A stretch of DNA of 35,131 bases from Candidatus Lambdaproteobacteria bacterium RIFOXYD2_FULL_50_16 (GTDB lineage Bacteria; SAR324; XYD2-FULL-50-16), in contig MFNE01000021.1 of assembly GCA_001783695.1 (NCBI GenBank), forward strand, positions 1 to 35,131, read 5' to 3'. The notes below the pieces were generated by a model. That model saw nothing but the letters and a program-made list of their open reading frames with translations, did no database searches and was not told the DNA's origin. A program made the translations under genes and the position numbers. This document shows, in pieces, positions 1 to 33,617 of the stretch (the stretch's first letter is position 1; each line of letters begins with the position of its first letter).

Positions 1-172
1 GTAAAACCGCCCTGCCGTGAATTAGGAGGTGTATGAACCTGATTGCTCAGGTGGGAGAAATATAACGCCATTAGGCTTCCTGCAGAGCAGGCATGCACAC
101 CGGCGACAGAGATCTGTCCCTTTTTTTAAGTCACGGCTCAACCGATCCTAAAGGTCACGTACAGGGCAGTCC
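1..172 (-). ncRNA. ssrS: 6S RNA (RNA polymerase regulator)
   Basis: 6S RNA binds the sigma-70 holoenzyme by mimicking an open promoter. Reading the minus strand, the 5' arm ACTGCCCTG (plus 162-170) pairs with CAGGGCGGT (plus 6-14), forming a closing stem with one G-U pair. Inside it CGTGA pairs with TCACG, and TTAGGA pairs with TCCTAA. The 3' half contains GCATGC, a small CCTGC/GCAGG hairpin, then AAGCCTAA, the same order as in the E. coli molecule, followed by an ACCTGA/TCAGGT hairpin. It lies directly downstream of zapA on the same strand, the classic proteobacterial arrangement. A short T run follows the closing stem. Exact ends are inferred. The usual downstream neighbour (5-formyltetrahydrofolate cyclo-ligase) would lie outside the window. 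Confidence 0.85.
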
Positions 173-195
173 TAAACAGGTTAACCGGCCCGATT

Positions 196-8548: not shown

Positions 8549-9292
8549 ACTCGATTCAGTCTGGGCCTCGCTGAAGCGGTAGAGATATTGAGGCGCTTTC
8601 GAAAAATAGGTAAAGTGAAAGGAAATTTTTTCAGCTGGCATCAAGGCGAGTAGCAGGGGATTGGTAGGTTTTACCAAAATCTCGATCAATTCAGCTTCCC
8701 CCAAAGGGGTTTGCTCTTTAAATTGTTTTTCTACCCGCGCCTCTACGGCCAACCGGGCCATGGATTGGGGTAGGTTATTTTTTTTCAAATCGAAGGCTAA
8801 TTGGGGCAGGTATAGGGTAAATCTAAGCGGCTCTCGGGTAAGTTCGTTTAAATGTTTTTGTAGGTATAGAGTCAACTCTTCAAAGATTACCATTCCCACC
8901 TCTTGGGCCTGGATAAACTCCATTTTTTGGCCCCCTAGACTGATCTGACTCGATATCTTACCCCCGTTAAACCGGTCCAAAATATGCCAATCCCGCCGAT
9001 AGTCGGTCTCGCGATATTCTAGCAGTTGCACCGCCCCTGCCGAAAAGAGACTTTCCTTTTCTTGAAACACCTCGCCATCAGGTTTGCGGTTTTTTAAGCG
9101 TTCAATTAACCGCCCCCGGTCGTCTTGGTGATAGGTTAGTTCTGAATAACCGGTGATCTGTTGACTTTGTCGGTTTCGGTGTTCATACCTAAGTTCTAGC
9201 CCCCCCCGAATCTGGCCCGGATAGCCTTCGGCAAGGCTGTTTGTGGTCCCTAAAAGGCAACAGACTAACCCTAAAAGTAGATTTTTTCTCAT
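8525..9292 (-). CDS. secreted protein of unknown function
   Basis: I do not recognise this family. The 255-residue product begins with a clear signal peptide (MRKNLLLGLVCCLLG, cleavage likely after NSLA), so it is periplasmic or envelope-associated. The mature part is charged and rich in predicted beta segments, with many Gln, Glu and Arg and no cysteines after the signal, and no transmembrane segment. I chose the ATG at 9292 because the signal peptide starts there; an upstream in-frame ATG at 9331 would add 13 residues reading into dapF. Its ATG shares bases with the ATG of divergent dapF in the palindrome CTCATGAG. It overlaps aat by 24 bases at the 3' end. Confidence 0.75.
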   Translation of the reverse strand: MRKNLLLGLVCCLLGTTNSLAEGYPGQIRGGLELRYEHRNRQSQQITGYSELTYHQDDRGRLIERLKNRKPDGEVFQEKESLFSAGAVQLLEYRETDYRRDWHILDRFNGGKISSQISLGGQKMEFIQAQEVGMVIFEELTLYLQKHLNELTREPLRFTLYLPQLAFDLKKNNLPQSMARLAVEARVEKQFKEQTPLGEAELIEILVKPTNPLLLALMPAEKISFHFTYFSKAPQYLYRFSEAQTESSLAQVKLP

Positions 9293-10130
9293 GAGCAGGC
9301 TTCGCTTTACCAAAATGCAAGGTGCAGGCAATGACTACATCTACGTTAACTTGAGCCAAGAGGAACTGTCAAAAAGCCCTGCCGAACTGGCCCAGATGCT
9401 TTGTGACCGACACTTCGGGATCGGGGGAGATGGATTGGTTTTAATTGATAAAGGTCAAGGGACCGATCTGACGATGCGAATGTTTAATGCCGATGGTTCC
9501 GAAGCGGAAATGTGTGGAAATGCCATTCGCTGTGTGGCTTTTTATGGCCTAATAAACGGTCTGACCGACAAAAAATCGGTAAGTGTCCATACCAAAGCCG
9601 GGGTCAAACAGATCGAGATCCTAGAGGTCAATCCCGCGAGAATCAGGGTCAACATGGGTGTCCCCGATCTCAGACCTGCATTTTTACCGGCCCGAGTCGA
9701 AGGAGAACGGGTGCTAGATCAAGAGTTTGATTTTGGCGGCACCAAAATAAGGGGTAGTCTTGTTTCTATGGGTAATCCCCACTTGGTGACCTTTGTGGAT
9801 AACCTAGACACCCTGGACATCGAAACCTTAGGCCCGCTAATCGAACAAGATCCGAGATTCCCCAACCGGATTAACATTGAGTTCGTCCAGGTTTTCAGCC
9901 CAGAGCGGGCGAGGCAACGGACCTGGGAGCGAGGCAGTGGCGAGACACTCGCTTGTGGCACCGGCGCTTCGGCAGTGCTAGTGGCCGGGGCCTTAACCGG
10001 CAGGCTCGGACGCAAAGCCCATATAACACTTTTAGGGGGGGAATTAACCCTTGAATGGGAAGGCGAGGGAAAGCCCTTATTTATGACCGGTGGGGCGGTC
10101 AAGGTCTTTGACGGGGAGCTTGATTATTGA
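9291..10130 (+). CDS. dapF: diaminopimelate epimerase
   Basis: DapF interconverts LL- and meso-diaminopimelate in the lysine and peptidoglycan pathway using two cysteines as acid and base. The 279-residue product shows KMQGAGNDYI near the start, the first catalytic Cys in EMCGNAIRC, the second in ACGTGASA, and GNPHLVTFV between. The start ATG 9291 gives MSRLRFTKMQG, fitting the family, which begins 6-10 residues before the GxGND motif; a longer in-frame start at 9243 would add 16 unlike residues. Its promoter must lie within the divergent gene. The stop overlaps the next ATG (TGATG), so it leads the dapF-ClC-SelW operon. Confidence 0.96.
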   Translation: MSRLRFTKMQGAGNDYIYVNLSQEELSKSPAELAQMLCDRHFGIGGDGLVLIDKGQGTDLTMRMFNADGSEAEMCGNAIRCVAFYGLINGLTDKKSVSVHTKAGVKQIEILEVNPARIRVNMGVPDLRPAFLPARVEGERVLDQEFDFGGTKIRGSLVSMGNPHLVTFVDNLDTLDIETLGPLIEQDPRFPNRINIEFVQVFSPERARQRTWERGSGETLACGTGASAVLVAGALTGRLGRKAHITLLGGELTLEWEGEGKPLFMTGGAVKVFDGELDY

Positions 10131-11920
10131 TGGGCGCTTTTTACAAAAAAGGTCGTTTAGCCCGTCTAAAGTTCGTTAAAGCCTTAGCTGTCCGTTTGCG
10201 CCTTGGCGAAACCAATATCGAGCTGCTCCTAGCGGTGGTGGTTGGGATTGCTGCAGGTTTTGCCTCTGTTTTTTTCCGGTTGATGTTGCACTATATGCAC
10301 CAGTTTTTTTTTGGAATGGTGTATCCCTGGCTTTCAGAATTATCTCCTTATTTGTTGCCCTTAATCCCGGTTACCGGTTCAATCCTTTTGATCCCCTTTA
10401 TTCGCGGCACCTCTGGGCGGATTTCAGGGTATGGCATGCCCGCCTTCTTGATTGCCGTTCATTTGCGGGGTGGTTTGATCCGCACAAGGGATATTTTTAT
10501 TAAAATGATCACCGCTGCCATCACCATCTCTACCGGCGGAGCAGCCGGGGTGGAGGGGCCCATCGCCATGATTGGCGGGGCAGTAGGTTCGGCAGTGGGG
10601 CGATTTTTTTCCATGGGAAGCCACCGCCTGAAGGTGTTGATTGCTTGTGGTTCGGCGGCAGGCATCGCCGCCCAGTTTAACGCCCCCCTAGCCGGAGTGC
10701 TTTTCGCCCAAGAAGTGATCATGATTGGCCAGTTCCAATTACAAACCTTTGGGGTAATTGTTATCAGTTCGGGCCTCGCCACCGCTATCAGCCGTGCTTA
10801 TTATACGGACCAACCTCTCTTTGGAAAACTAACCTACGACCTACACGGCTTCTACGAATTCCCTTTGTACATTGTTTTGGGGCTTTTGATTGGGGTTTTA
10901 GGTTATCTGTTTTTAAAAATGTTCGAACAGGTCAGCGAACGCTTTGAAGACCTAAAACTAAACCGCTATGCCAAGCCTGTGTTGGGCTCTTTTATGGTGG
11001 GTTGTTTGGGTTTGATTAACTTTAACGTCTTGGGTGATGGTTATGAAACCATTATTGACGTGCTCCAAGACAAACCGGAACTATCGATTTTGGCCATCTT
11101 TGCCCTGATTTTTCTAAAGATGCTAGCCAGCTCCATCACTCTGGGTTCAGGCAACGTTGGGGGGTTGTTTGCCCCTAGTTTGTTTATTGGGGCCATGATC
11201 GGGGCGACCTACGGTTGGTTGATTAACATGGAACTGCCCGAAGGAATGCATGTACACCCCGGTAGTTACGCTCTAGTAGGCATGGGGGCTTTTTTGGCGG
11301 CAATAACCCACGCCCCGATGACCGCAATCTTTTTATTGTTTGAATTAACCAATAATTATCAGGTCATTATCCCCATTATGTTCGCCTCGGTAATTGGGGT
11401 TATGGTCTCAAGGGCACTTAATCCCGATTCCTTAGACGCAGCCGAACTCAACCGCCGGGGCATTGTGCTACATGCAGGGCGCGAGGAGTCTATTTTGTCG
11501 AAGGTGTTAATCGAAAAGGTAATGATTACTGACTTCGAAACCATCCCCGAAAACATGACCTTTGCCGAGTTTATGCAAATTTTTCCCAACTCAAAAAGCC
11601 AATATTATCCGGTCTTAGACCCGAGCGGGCATATGTATGGGGTGGTCAGTTTTCAGGACATTCGAGCGATTTTGTTAGAAGAGGGTTTAGAACATTTGGT
11701 GGTCATGAAAGAACTCGCCGAGACCAACATCATCAAGCTTTACCCCCACGACAGCCTGACCGAAGCGATCAAAAAATTCAGCATCAAAGACATCGAAGCC
11801 ATTCCGGTAGTTAGTCCCGAAGATGACCGTTTGCTTTTAGGAATCCTCAAGCGTAAAGACGTAATTGACGAGTACAACCGAGCGATCTTGTTGCAAACGG
11901 TGGACACCAAAAAGGAATAA
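10130..11920 (+). CDS. ClC-family chloride channel/transporter with CBS domains
   Basis: A ClC membrane protein moving Cl- (or F-) by channel or H+-exchange mechanism. The 596-residue product has about a dozen hydrophobic segments. Selectivity motifs are visible: SGYGMP (GSGIP-type), GVEGP (GKEGP-type, with the gating glutamate retained) and GGLFAP (GxFxP). After about residue 440 come two cytoplasmic CBS domains (about 460-520 and 530-590), which usually sense nucleotides. Start ATG 10130 overlaps the dapF stop; a TTG one codon earlier is possible. The SelW-like selenoprotein begins one base after the stop. Exchanger versus channel cannot be decided by reading. Confidence 0.92.
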   Translation: MGAFYKKGRLARLKFVKALAVRLRLGETNIELLLAVVVGIAAGFASVFFRLMLHYMHQFFFGMVYPWLSELSPYLLPLIPVTGSILLIPFIRGTSGRISGYGMPAFLIAVHLRGGLIRTRDIFIKMITAAITISTGGAAGVEGPIAMIGGAVGSAVGRFFSMGSHRLKVLIACGSAAGIAAQFNAPLAGVLFAQEVIMIGQFQLQTFGVIVISSGLATAISRAYYTDQPLFGKLTYDLHGFYEFPLYIVLGLLIGVLGYLFLKMFEQVSERFEDLKLNRYAKPVLGSFMVGCLGLINFNVLGDGYETIIDVLQDKPELSILAIFALIFLKMLASSITLGSGNVGGLFAPSLFIGAMIGATYGWLINMELPEGMHVHPGSYALVGMGAFLAAITHAPMTAIFLLFELTNNYQVIIPIMFASVIGVMVSRALNPDSLDAAELNRRGIVLHAGREESILSKVLIEKVMITDFETIPENMTFAEFMQIFPNSKSQYYPVLDPSGHMYGVVSFQDIRAILLEEGLEHLVVMKELAETNIIKLYPHDSLTEAIKKFSIKDIEAIPVVSPEDDRLLLGILKRKDVIDEYNRAILLQTVDTKKE

Positions 11921-11921
11921 A

Positions 11922-12146
11922 ATGAAAATTAGCATTGAATATTGCGGGGTTTGAAACTACGAACCTAAGGCCGTCGGTCTGGCGGCCAAAATTAAAGAAA
12001 GGTTTGGCCTAGAGGCGGGGCTGGTGCGCGGTTCAGGCGGAGTCTTTGAGGTTAGCATAGATGCAAAGTTAGTTTATTCCAAAAAACAAACCGGCCAATT
12101 CCCAGAAGACCGCGATATTTTTGAGGCGATCCAAAAGGCCAAGTAA
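11922..12146 (+). CDS. selW: SelW-like (Rdx family) selenoprotein with in-frame UGA
   Basis: A 74-codon gene with one internal TGA (11952-11954, codon 11) read as selenocysteine. The product begins MKISIEYCGV-Sec-NYEP, giving the CxxU redox motif at residues 8-11 of the thioredoxin-like Rdx (SelW/SelT/SelH) family. The frame stays open after the TGA for 63 codons with normal content (GLAAKIKERFGLEAGLV, then GVFEVSIDAKLVYSK and the family-type KKQTGQFPEDRDIFEAI segment). AAGGA sits 5 bases upstream of the ATG. A bacterial SECIS-like hairpin follows the TGA. The ATG is one base after the ClC stop, so it is co-transcribed and coupled. Standard gene callers would miss or truncate it. Function presumably a thiol/selenol oxidoreductase; the substrate is unknown. 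Confidence 0.93.
11952..11987 (+). promoter_or_regulatory. bacterial SECIS element
   Basis: The UGA at 11952 is followed after 14 bases by a 7-bp stem GGCCGTC (11969-11975) and GGCGGCC (11981-11987), with one G-U pair, closing the loop GGTCT (11976-11980). GGTCU is the loop recognised by SelB in E. coli fdhF. The UGA-to-loop distance is 21 bases, within the known bacterial range. A weaker AACCT/AGGTT pairing could extend the lower stem. Confidence 0.9.
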
Positions 12147-12598
12147 AACAAGACTAACAGGGTTAGGCTAGGTGATTTCAACTCAACTGGACCAAAAAGA
12201 ATTGGCCAGTTTCGCACCTGATTAGCCTATCTGGAGGCTAACCAGTATGGATTAACGGAGATTTAAAAGAGCCCCCTTTTGCAGGAACAGGGTGGTTTTT
12301 CAGCTACCCAGATAATCCTATAGACACCAGCCTACCGCAGTTAGGGCTACGCCAAATTTCGATTCGGCCTGTCTTTTAGCCAAAACTAGACGTTTTACCA
12401 GCTAGGGTGTTACCCTGAGACAAGATCTGTGCTGATTGATTTTTTGGGGTTACCTGGGAAAATGTTTTGTCTGGGCTGAGACCAGCCACAAAGCTGTTTA
12501 AAACAAGGCAACCCCTTTGAAAAACCAACCAAAACGGCTCAAACCGGTCAACCTAACCAAAGGCCGAATGAACATGAGCGCTTTAAGTTGAGACCCTT
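12147..12598. other. gene-free stretch downstream of selW
   Basis: No intact gene is seen. Immediately downstream of selW is an inverted repeat, TTAGCCT (12222-12228) and AGGCTAA (12235-12241), extendable by CTG/CAG across one mismatch, a possible weak terminator without a T run. Smaller hairpins follow: AGGGT/ACCCT at 12404-12416 and GGCTG/CAGCC around 12475. One frame near 12250-12380 reads a protein-like stretch (GTGWFFSYPDNPIDT) ending ISIRPVF and a stop, without a start codon and with an in-frame TAA just upstream, so it may be a relic of a decayed gene. The ogt promoter should lie at the right end. Confidence 0.4.
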
Positions 12599-16731: not shown

Positions 16732-16958
16732 GCTTGATCTCCAAATAGTGAAAATGGAACCGCGATAGAATGGGTTCAGAATATCACAAGCCGAAAGATA
16801 GGCAACTAAAATACCAACAGATTCCATAAATGCCTTTCTAGTTTGCTTCTACAGGCCAGACCCAGGTAAGAATGCAACCGGGGTCTAAAAAAAGCGGCAC
16901 TGGCTAAATCACAAGGGCTCTGCTATTTTAAGCAGGACAACCCATTTCGGTGCCCAAT

Positions 16959-17918
16959 ATGAACCAAACCCTACCCCCTTCCCGCTTTGCAGAGCGCCTT
17001 AAAACCGAAGGCCTTGACCTCAACCGGGTCTCGCCAGATTGGTTGCAAATCAACTTAGGGCGGTTGTGTAATCAGGCTTGCCACCACTGCCATTTAGAGG
17101 CCGGTCCCAAGCGGACCGAGGTGATGCAACAGACCACCATGGTGCGGTTGTTAGAGGTGTTAGACCACAGTCCTTCGATAAAAAAGATCGACCTAACTGG
17201 CGGAGCGCCTGAGCTAAATCCTGATTTCCGTTTTTTGATCAAGTCGCTAAAAAGCCGAGGATTGCAGGTGATCAGTCGCTGTAACTTAACCATTCTTTTA
17301 GAACCTGGGCAGCAAGACACCGCCCAATTTTACGCAGACCAAGGGGTTGATTTGGTTTGCTCCCTCCCTTGTTATGGCTCCAAAAACGTGAATCATCAGC
17401 GAGGTTTAGGGGTATTTGAAAAAAGTATTGCCGCCCTTCGCCTACTCAACCAATTGGGTTACGGACAGGGCAAACTAAAACTCGATTTAGTTTACAACCC
17501 AGACGGCCCCTCGTTACCTCCAGACCAAAAAAAATTAGAGGAGGACTACAAAAACAGACTTATGGCCGATTTCGGGATTGTTTTTGATCAGCTTTTGACC
17601 ATTACCAATATGCCCATCAAAAGGTTTTTAGACCAACTCGACAAAGCTGGAGCGGCGGCGCAGTACGTCGAACTATTAACCCAAAGTTTTAATCCCTTGG
17701 CTGCGGCGCAGGTGATGTGCCTAAAACTGATTTCAGTAGATTGGCAGGGTAGATTGTTTGACTGCGACTTTAACCAAGCCCTTGATCTACCCACTAAGGC
17801 TGGGGACCTGTGGCTGATTAACCATTTTGGCCAAACCGAAGGAAAAATTCGTTTTGGGGAACATTGTTATGGCTGTACTGCGGGTACCGGTAGTAGCTGC
17901 GGCGGGGCGCTGGGTTAA
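16959..17918 (+). CDS. arsS: ArsS-type radical SAM protein (cysteine form)
   Basis: Radical SAM enzyme with the 4Fe-4S motif LCNQACHHC (Cys37, Cys41, Cys44), LTGGAPELNP, and the C-terminal Cys-rich tail HCYGCTAGTGSSCGG. The tail matches the ArsS family, implicated in arsenosugar biosynthesis, in which some members carry selenocysteine in the tail. Here the positions I can read are cysteines. The 319-residue length fits. ATG 16959 is used; a GTG at 16950 would add three residues, and neither has a good ribosome site. No ArsM-like methyltransferase is in the window, so the pathway role is inferred from family only. A decayed gene follows directly. Confidence 0.85.
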   Translation: MNQTLPPSRFAERLKTEGLDLNRVSPDWLQINLGRLCNQACHHCHLEAGPKRTEVMQQTTMVRLLEVLDHSPSIKKIDLTGGAPELNPDFRFLIKSLKSRGLQVISRCNLTILLEPGQQDTAQFYADQGVDLVCSLPCYGSKNVNHQRGLGVFEKSIAALRLLNQLGYGQGKLKLDLVYNPDGPSLPPDQKKLEEDYKNRLMADFGIVFDQLLTITNMPIKRFLDQLDKAGAAAQYVELLTQSFNPLAAAQVMCLKLISVDWQGRLFDCDFNQALDLPTKAGDLWLINHFGQTEGKIRFGEHCYGCTAGTGSSCGGALG

Positions 17919-30568: not shown

Positions 30569-32029
30569 TTAATTGAGAAGTTGCAAGACTTGGTTAGGTA
30601 ACTGATTTGCTTGAGCCAGCATGGCGGACGCTGACTCGGTCATAATCTGGTCCCTAGTAAACTTCGCTATTTCCGAAGCCATGTCGATGTCTCTGACGAC
30701 CGACTCGGAACTAACTAAGTTCTCCGAAGCGACCCGAAGGTTATTCAGGTTGCTTTCCAGGGTGTTTTTTTGAAAAGCGCCTAGGTTGCCCCTTATGGAA
30801 CTAACCTGGTTGATCGCTTTATCAATCAAACGAAGGGAGTCTTGCGCGCCCTGGAAACTGGTTAAATCGATCTCGCTTAAATCGCCAAAACCACTCTGGT
30901 TCTCCACCCCCGTCGATAAATGGCGGCTGTGGATATCCTCGACTTTCATCGAGACCGACTGATTTTGGTTCCCGCCTATTTGAAAGCGGAGCGCGTTTTG
31001 GGTTACATAAATCTGTCCAACCGAGACCCCTTCAATGGGCAATTCTTGGTCTTCTGGACCCACTTGACCCTTAATTTTAACAGTTAGTCCCTCCACCGAT
31101 TGGGCTCCCGAAATCCCGGTTAAAAATTGCCCCCGACCTATGGCAGACTCACCGCCTAGCATTCCCTTTACGTCTTGGCCTGCACGTGCCGCCTCAATCT
31201 CTCCCGCAACCGCCGAAAGTACCCCGGCGCTCGAAGAAAGGACCTGAAAACCAGGAGCCGAGCCCCAGTCTTGATGCTGCACCCTAAGCCGACCAACCTC
31301 GTCCATCTCGATAGTGACCTTCAACCCGTTTTTTCGGACCTCTGAAGCCAATCTGGCGACCACCTGATCCTTGGATTCCCCACTTTGGGTCGTGATCTCA
31401 GCAGTCTTGCCATTTTGAATCACCATCAGGGTTTCTCCCTGATCGATTATCTCTTGGCTCAAAGCCTGACTGCCTTGGGCACTTGCCTTAGTGGCGTTTT
31501 GGGTGACTACCACTTCAAAACCAGACACCCTAGAGTCTTTGGTGTTAAGCCCAGCTTCGACGAACTCTATCAGTTCGCCTGTTACCGCGCCACCTGCTCC
31601 ATGGGTGCCGTCTAACAGCTTTCGGTTTCCAAACTGCGCCTGTTCGGCGATGCGGTCGATTGTTTGTAAAGCGTTTCTGACCTCCCTTTGATCTGCTAGA
31701 AGCATTGGTTCATCATTAACCCCCTCGTTGGCCGCATGAATGGCCAACTGCCGCATGGATACCAAAAGCCGGTTTACTTCGCCTAAGTTGGCCTCGGTGG
31801 TTTGCACCATCGAAATAGCCGACTCAGAGTTATCTATCGCTTGGGTTAGCCCCGCGATCTGGGCCCTCATCTGCTCACTGATCACCAAAGAAGCCGGTCC
31901 ATCGGCTCCGCGGTTGATCTTAAGCCCGCTGGAAAGCTTCTCCAGGGTATGGGTAAGACTGGATTCGTTGTTCAGCAGGCTTCGATGAGCATTAACGGAG
32001 GCCACGTTGTGGTTGATCCGTAGTGACAT
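30569..32029 (-). CDS. flagellin (downstream copy)
   Basis: A 486-residue flagellar filament protein. N-terminal D0/D1 region (MSLRINHNVASVNAHRSLL, then LEKLSSGLKINRGADGPASL) and C-terminal D0 (MLAQANQLPNQVLQLLN) are intact, with a family-type central D2/D3 region that varies most. AAGGAGG lies 5 bases upstream of the ATG, a perfect ribosome site. No sigma-28 site was found in the 130 bases upstream, so it may be read from the upstream copy's promoter or from a promoter hidden among the hairpins. Paralogue of the next gene. Confidence 0.95.
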   Translation of the reverse strand: MSLRINHNVASVNAHRSLLNNESSLTHTLEKLSSGLKINRGADGPASLVISEQMRAQIAGLTQAIDNSESAISMVQTTEANLGEVNRLLVSMRQLAIHAANEGVNDEPMLLADQREVRNALQTIDRIAEQAQFGNRKLLDGTHGAGGAVTGELIEFVEAGLNTKDSRVSGFEVVVTQNATKASAQGSQALSQEIIDQGETLMVIQNGKTAEITTQSGESKDQVVARLASEVRKNGLKVTIEMDEVGRLRVQHQDWGSAPGFQVLSSSAGVLSAVAGEIEAARAGQDVKGMLGGESAIGRGQFLTGISGAQSVEGLTVKIKGQVGPEDQELPIEGVSVGQIYVTQNALRFQIGGNQNQSVSMKVEDIHSRHLSTGVENQSGFGDLSEIDLTSFQGAQDSLRLIDKAINQVSSIRGNLGAFQKNTLESNLNNLRVASENLVSSESVVRDIDMASEIAKFTRDQIMTESASAMLAQANQLPNQVLQLLN

Positions 32030-32159: not shown

Positions 32160-33617
32160 TTAACTCAAGAGCCGTAAGACTTGGTTCGGGGTCTGGTTGG
32201 CTTGTGCCAACATCGCCGTTGCCGATTGAGTCATAATCTGGTTCTTGGTGAAGTTGGCCATTTCAGAGGCCATGTCCACATCCCGAATGACCGACTCAGA
32301 ACTAATCAAGTTCTCGTTGGCTACCCGCAGGTTGTTCAGGTTCGACTCTAAGGTGTTCTTTTGGAACGCCCCAATGTCGCCTCTAATCCGCGCGATTTCG
32401 GTAATCGCCGAGTCAACCAACTTCAAGGTGTCTTGCGCCCCCTGGAAGCTCGTCACGTTTACATCGCCCAAGCTTTTAAACTTAGAATCGTTGTTAATGT
32501 TTTTAGCCAAGGTTTGCGCATGGGTCGAACCGATGGAAATACCAGCCGTTTGCCCATAGTTGCCACCCACTTGGAAATTCAGCGAGTTTTGCGCTACATA
32601 AGCGCGGCCTATCTCGACCGAGCCGTTTTCTGGGATGCCGTTTTCGCCACCTGCCTGACCGGTGTAACGAACCTTCAAGCCTTCAATCGTGGCGGCGCCA
32701 GTGATTCCGGTCAGTACTTGACCTTCCCCAATGGCCGATTCCCCGTTGATCGTACCCTTAATATCCTGACCCGATAGAGCCGCTTCGATTTCACCTGCAC
32801 CTTGGGATAACACCCCGGCAGTGGTCGAAGACACTTGGAACCCAAAAGCCGAACCAAATTGGTTGTGGGTTACCGAAAGCTTACCCGCTTCGAGGCCTAC
32901 GGTTACGTCCAGCCCGTTGCGGCTGATCTCGGAGGCCAAGTTTTTGATCGCAATATCAACGGTGTCGTCCGCCTTAGAGGTGTACATGGCGGTTTTGCCG
33001 TTTTCGATCACCATAAAGGTTTCCCCTGCTTTGACCAAGTCTTCCGTCAAGGCTACCGTACCGGCAGCCATGGCCTTGGACGCGTTTTGGGTAATAGCCA
33101 CGGCTACCCCACCTTGAGAAGAATCTTTGGTTTTTAAGCTCGCGCCCAAAAATTCCAAGCCTTCGCCAGTGGTCGAGCCCAAAGCGCCGTTGGTACCGTC
33201 TAACAACTTGCGGCTACCAAACTGGGCTTGTTTGCTAATCCGGTTGATCGTCTCTAAAGAGTTATCGATCTCCCTTTGATCTGCTTCCAGCATTTGCTCG
33301 TTGTTGACCCCTTCGTTGGACGCATGGATAGCGAGCTGGCGAATTGAGGTCAAAAGACGACTGGTTTCTCCGAGGTTAGCTTCCGTGGTTTGCACCATTG
33401 AAATAGCCGTTTCAGAGTTGTCGATCGCTTGGGTCAAGCCCGCGATCTGGCCACGCATCTGTTCGGAAATCACTAGAGCAGCAGGGCTGTCAGCGGCACG
33501 GTTGATCTTTAAACCACTAGAAAGTTTTTCTAAGGTTTTGGACATGGCCGTATCATTGGCCTGCATGTTCCGGTGCGAATTAAGCGCAGCGATGTTATGA
33601 TTGACTCGTAAAGACAT
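32160..33617 (-). CDS. flagellin (upstream, promoter-proximal copy)
   Basis: A 485-residue flagellin. N-terminal MSLRVNHNIAALNSHRNMQ, LEKLSSGLKINRAADSPAAL and C-terminal MLAQANQTPNQVLRLLS are the conserved filament-packing regions. The middle aligns with the downstream copy but with many changes, so the two are paralogues, not a recent duplication. AAGGAGG lies 5 bases from the ATG. A sigma-28-type promoter lies about 190 bases upstream, giving a long leader. It is probably the major flagellin, being promoter-proximal; which is dominant needs expression data. Confidence 0.96.
   Translation of the reverse strand: MSLRVNHNIAALNSHRNMQANDTAMSKTLEKLSSGLKINRAADSPAALVISEQMRGQIAGLTQAIDNSETAISMVQTTEANLGETSRLLTSIRQLAIHASNEGVNNEQMLEADQREIDNSLETINRISKQAQFGSRKLLDGTNGALGSTTGEGLEFLGASLKTKDSSQGGVAVAITQNASKAMAAGTVALTEDLVKAGETFMVIENGKTAMYTSKADDTVDIAIKNLASEISRNGLDVTVGLEAGKLSVTHNQFGSAFGFQVSSTTAGVLSQGAGEIEAALSGQDIKGTINGESAIGEGQVLTGITGAATIEGLKVRYTGQAGGENGIPENGSVEIGRAYVAQNSLNFQVGGNYGQTAGISIGSTHAQTLAKNINNDSKFKSLGDVNVTSFQGAQDTLKLVDSAITEIARIRGDIGAFQKNTLESNLNNLRVANENLISSESVIRDVDMASEMANFTKNQIMTQSATAMLAQANQTPNQVLRLLS

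Follow-up and report, generated by a model that had tools for sequence, protein, structure and literature searches.

The window, by which we mean the whole stretch of 35,131 nucleotides analysed here, very probably contains a functional selenoprotein gene of the SelW/Rdx family, in which an in-frame UGA would be read as selenocysteine (Sec) by means of SelB and a SECIS hairpin; we place the probability of this reading at about 0.96. The gene, selW (11922–12146, plus strand), encodes a protein of 74 amino acids and directly follows a gene for a ClC-type anion transporter. It adds a well-supported case to a bacterial selenoprotein family that is already well known, and the new element is the adjacency of the ClC gene and selW throughout the family of genomes to which the window belongs.

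A conserved selW frame across an in-frame UGA

The selW frame begins with an ATG at 11922, encounters a TGA at codon 11 (11952–11954, plus strand) and continues for 63 sense codons to a TAA at 12144–12146, exactly as the initial annotation had described. Its translation, with U for the UGA, is MKISIEYCGVUNYEPKAVGLAAKIKERFGLEAGLVRGSGGVFEVSIDAKLVYSKKQTGQFPEDRDIFEAIQKAK, and the CxxU motif (YC-GV-U, residues 8–11) lies near the N-terminus. Read across the UGA, the protein matches the Pfam Rdx model PF10262 at 69.8 bits over residues 2–71 (cut-off 22.6) and TIGR02174 at 62.3 bits (cut-off 34.2); a six-frame search with PF10262 also finds selW, at 61.5 bits. The expected Rdx homology of the frame is thus present, with a full-length match to the Rdx family (SelT/SelW/SelH) above the curated cut-offs, although many members of this family carry a cysteine whereas the protein of the window carries a Sec and is short. 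The best NCBIfam score is that of the equivalog NF041051 (SelTWH_Campy), at 87.6 bits over residues 3–70, which falls 0.4 bit short of the cut-off of 88, and the protein is not formally assigned to it. Among solved structures, phmmer identifies as sequence relatives C17orf37 (PDB entry 2ljk; E = 1.3e-12) and selenoprotein W (PDB entry 2npb; E = 9.9e-5), as well as Atu0228 (PDB entry 2fa8).

The conservation of the UGA was followed in a sample of 52 genomes from one class, which here is equivalent to the phylum. We found 42 Rdx loci, spread over 40 of the 52 genomes, each with exactly one in-frame TGA in its Rdx match; no Cys-form or TGA-free Rdx gene occurs among these 42 loci, all 52 genomes having been searched. 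In the 41 genes that were read residue by residue, the TGA is invariably the U of CxxU. The presence of the TGA at the same codon in 42 of 42 genes shows that it is not a sequencing error. Outside the phylum, a scan based on the SelW alignment, whose pattern had Cys in place of Sec, retrieved five distant homologues with a cysteine where the UGA stands (records titled Nitrospira/Nitrospirales/Nitrospiraceae, Thermodesulfovibrionales and Verrucomicrobiales), which is the usual exchange between Sec and Cys. Moreover, purifying selection acts on the selW codons beyond the UGA in all four groups compared, with a median dN/dS between 0.08 and 0.29: 0.13 in one genus (66 pairs) and 0.29, 0.20 and 0.08 in the other groups, the last two values (groups f1 and g20/22) being limited by synonymous saturation.

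Two divergent genes of the phylum deserve a separate mention. One (L075, genome G011) encodes an Rdx selenoprotein whose long C-terminal extension contains several cysteines (CGC...GCC). The other (L074, genome G050) is a second SelW-like UGA gene (EEUGYLEKASS), located 10 nt after an aldehyde-dehydrogenase-like gene.

The ClC gene upstream of selW

The ClC-type anion transporter, with two CBS domains (10127–11920, plus strand; PF00654 and PF00571), ends with a TAA at 11918–11920, so that, as annotated initially, a single base separates its stop from the selW ATG. Its frame overlaps by 4 nt with dapF (9288–10130, plus strand; PF01678), the first conserved partner upstream of ClC. A Shine–Dalgarno-like AAGGA lies inside the last ClC codons, which would fit a translational coupling of selW. 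From the ClC gene to the region after selW we found no promoter or terminator of note (one promoter-like match for 0.6 expected, and one terminator-like match for 1.3 expected), and co-transcription of selW with ClC, within an aat–dapF–ClC–selW block, is likely from the gene arrangement. The roughly 450 bases between selW and the following ogt-like gene (12147–12598) contain no Rfam match and, among the listed ORFs, none of 90 amino acids or more.

Within the family of the window, nine genomes, representing all seven of its genera, bear SelW, and in each of them an orthologous ClC gene immediately precedes selW on the same strand. These orthologues share 63–75% identity, and the gaps between the two genes are −4, 1, 2, 10, 13, 20, 21, 21 and 25 nt. 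A tenth genome of the family (G044, 68% complete) contains neither SelW nor this ClC orthologue. In one genome (G049, contig C47; L047/L090), the ClC gene next to selW is broken into two frames, by a frameshift or an assembly error. In families of the phylum other than that of the window, no ClC was found near selW within the 5 kb examined, and its neighbours, read from their translations, are HD phosphohydrolase-like, aldo/keto reductase-like and PspA-like. Likewise, the DNA examined at the five loci of Cys homologues outside the phylum gave no ClC match. The ClC–SelW pairing proposed initially is therefore genuine, and confined to one family as far as tested. The order dapF–ClC–selW is kept in this family and, since aat and dapF also hold their upstream place in most of these genomes, the best explanation for finding selW after ClC is an operon of this family, passed on as part of a larger block of synteny.

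We may wonder whether SelW, in addition to being a selenoprotein, regulates the ClC encoded upstream or is its redox partner, for example by reducing a disulfide of the transporter. The initial annotation had raised such a redox link, which, unlike the pairing itself, remains a guess that we regard as unlikely. The immediate adjacency in nine of nine genomes speaks for it, as does the joint lack of both genes in the SelW-less G044. In addition, two cysteines (columns 37 and 432 of the ClC protein of the window) occur in eight of the nine linked ClCs, compared with 0/21 and 1/21 in the unlinked homologues of the phylum. However, the ClC of the window itself has Val and Asn at these columns, both cysteines being missing together. 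The linked ClCs moreover form one orthologous group, so that the shared cysteines can reflect ancestry alone, just as the linkage can be plain synteny given the conservation of dapF and aat in the same block. The unrelated neighbours of selW in the other families also argue against a functional tie with ClC. Nothing but the two-cysteine pattern hints at a redox connection, and this pattern breaks down in the genome of the window itself. A stricter version, in which SelW would be the dedicated redox partner of ClC in this family and would control it through the thiols of most, but not all, of the linked transporters, is less likely again. If true, such a partnership would mean that anion transport is controlled in a new, selenium-dependent way.

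The SECIS hairpin and the probable decoding of the UGA

The hairpin downstream of the UGA (11969–11987, plus strand; 5′-GGCCGTC-GGTCT-GGCGGCC-3′) starts 14 nt after this codon and consists of an uninterrupted 7 bp stem closed by the loop GGTCT (GGUCU in the RNA; 11976–11980). The loop thus lies 21 nt after the TGA, as first noticed by the initial annotation, and none of the other TGA triplets in the window (979 in all, counting both strands) shows this combination. Taken as a single sequence, the hairpin is moderately stable and its fold mildly unusual (z = −1.86 compared with shuffles).

Strong support for the hairpin comes from covariation, measured on a gap-free alignment of the 50 nt counted from the TGA in 39 distinct homologous sequences. 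The seven pairs are standard in 87.2% of the cells and five of them have changed on both sides; the outermost pair alone occurs as CG, AU, GC, GU, UA and UG. Compensatory cells, with both sides changed, number 46, compared with 15.0 ± 3.2 in shuffles, none of 500 shuffles reaching the observed value. The covariation score is 0.473, compared with 0.175 after shuffling and at most 0.117 when the pairing is slid by 1–3 columns; the shuffles ignore the relatedness of the sequences, whereas the slide control preserves it. The second base of the loop is a G in all 39 sequences. In three members of the family of the window (L038, L041 and L071), the stem is partly unpaired and the fold weak (−3 to −6 kcal/mol).

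In Escherichia coli, the SECIS of fdhF that is read by SelB presents an apical GGUCU loop. The loop would be common to both elements, and they would differ in that the loop of the window starts 21 nt after the UGA, on its uninterrupted stem. A counterpart exists in the genome of the window, which contains the components that a functional selenoprotein presupposes, all above their cut-offs: selA (473.6 bits), selB (306 bits), a tRNA-Sec (selC) with a UCA anticodon and selD (355.2 bits). The selD gene (L006; G000:C46:82703-83632, minus strand) is a UGA gene as well (STCG-TGA), followed after this codon by a hairpin whose GGTCT loop lies at precisely the distance seen in selW, 21 nt. This agreement in loop and spacing is an independent match to the selW element. 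More broadly, selA is above its cut-off in 43 of the 52 genomes of the class.

Taken together, the Rdx scores, the TGA in 42 of 42 genes, the covarying SECIS and the Sec machinery support the functional SelW-like selenoprotein that had been proposed. The selW transcript probably also covers dapF and the ClC gene. During its translation, SelB carrying Sec-tRNA(Sec) would recognize the GGUCU-loop hairpin and allow the UGA at codon 11 to be read as Sec. SelW would then be a small thioredoxin-like protein with Sec11 and Cys8 as its CxxU redox pair, and its most likely activity would be that of a thiol/selenol oxidoreductase.

It is very improbable that another recoding mechanism inserts Cys, Trp or some other residue at the UGA: Cys homologues of SelW do exist, but the genome contains the UCA-anticodon tRNA-Sec together with selA, selB and selD, and the loop and spacing of the SECIS are those of selD. 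Equally improbable is an ordinary stop followed by a decayed or fortuitous frame; UGA does serve as a normal stop at the end of many other selW genes of the phylum, but the conserved TGA, the selection on the codons after it, the covarying SECIS and the full Sec machinery lead us to reject this reading, whether through a pseudogene or an assembly error.

Three further features of the window can be recorded. An ArsS-type radical SAM gene (16950–17918; TIGR04167, 412.9 bits), of a family named ‘(seleno)protein’, has no in-frame TGA in this copy and carries the C-terminal motif CYGC...SSCGG. A 6S RNA (RF00013, 91 bits) occupies the very start of the window (1–175, minus strand), and two adjacent flagellin-like genes are found at 30569–32029 and 32160–33617, both on the minus strand.

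SelW in the phylum and among known selenoproteins

Bacterial SelW proteins encoded with a UGA were already known in 2005 at the latest; SelW-like proteins with CXXU are the most abundant selenoprotein family in the Sargasso Sea data set, with 48 genes (PMC1088965). The gene of the window shares with them the CxxU motif, the Rdx homology, a SECIS just after the UGA and a G in the small apical loop. It differs by its linkage to ClC, the text of that study making no mention of operons or chloride transporters (PMC1088965). We found no literature on ClC together with SelW, nor on selenocysteine in Lambdaproteobacteria.

Gene prediction with the standard code would end the frame at the UGA and miss selW. 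SelW is widespread in this small phylum, in its Sec form wherever it was found, and its SECIS shares its design with that of selD. The fixed order of ClC and selW in one family provides a concrete and testable case for the redox partners of bacterial SelW.
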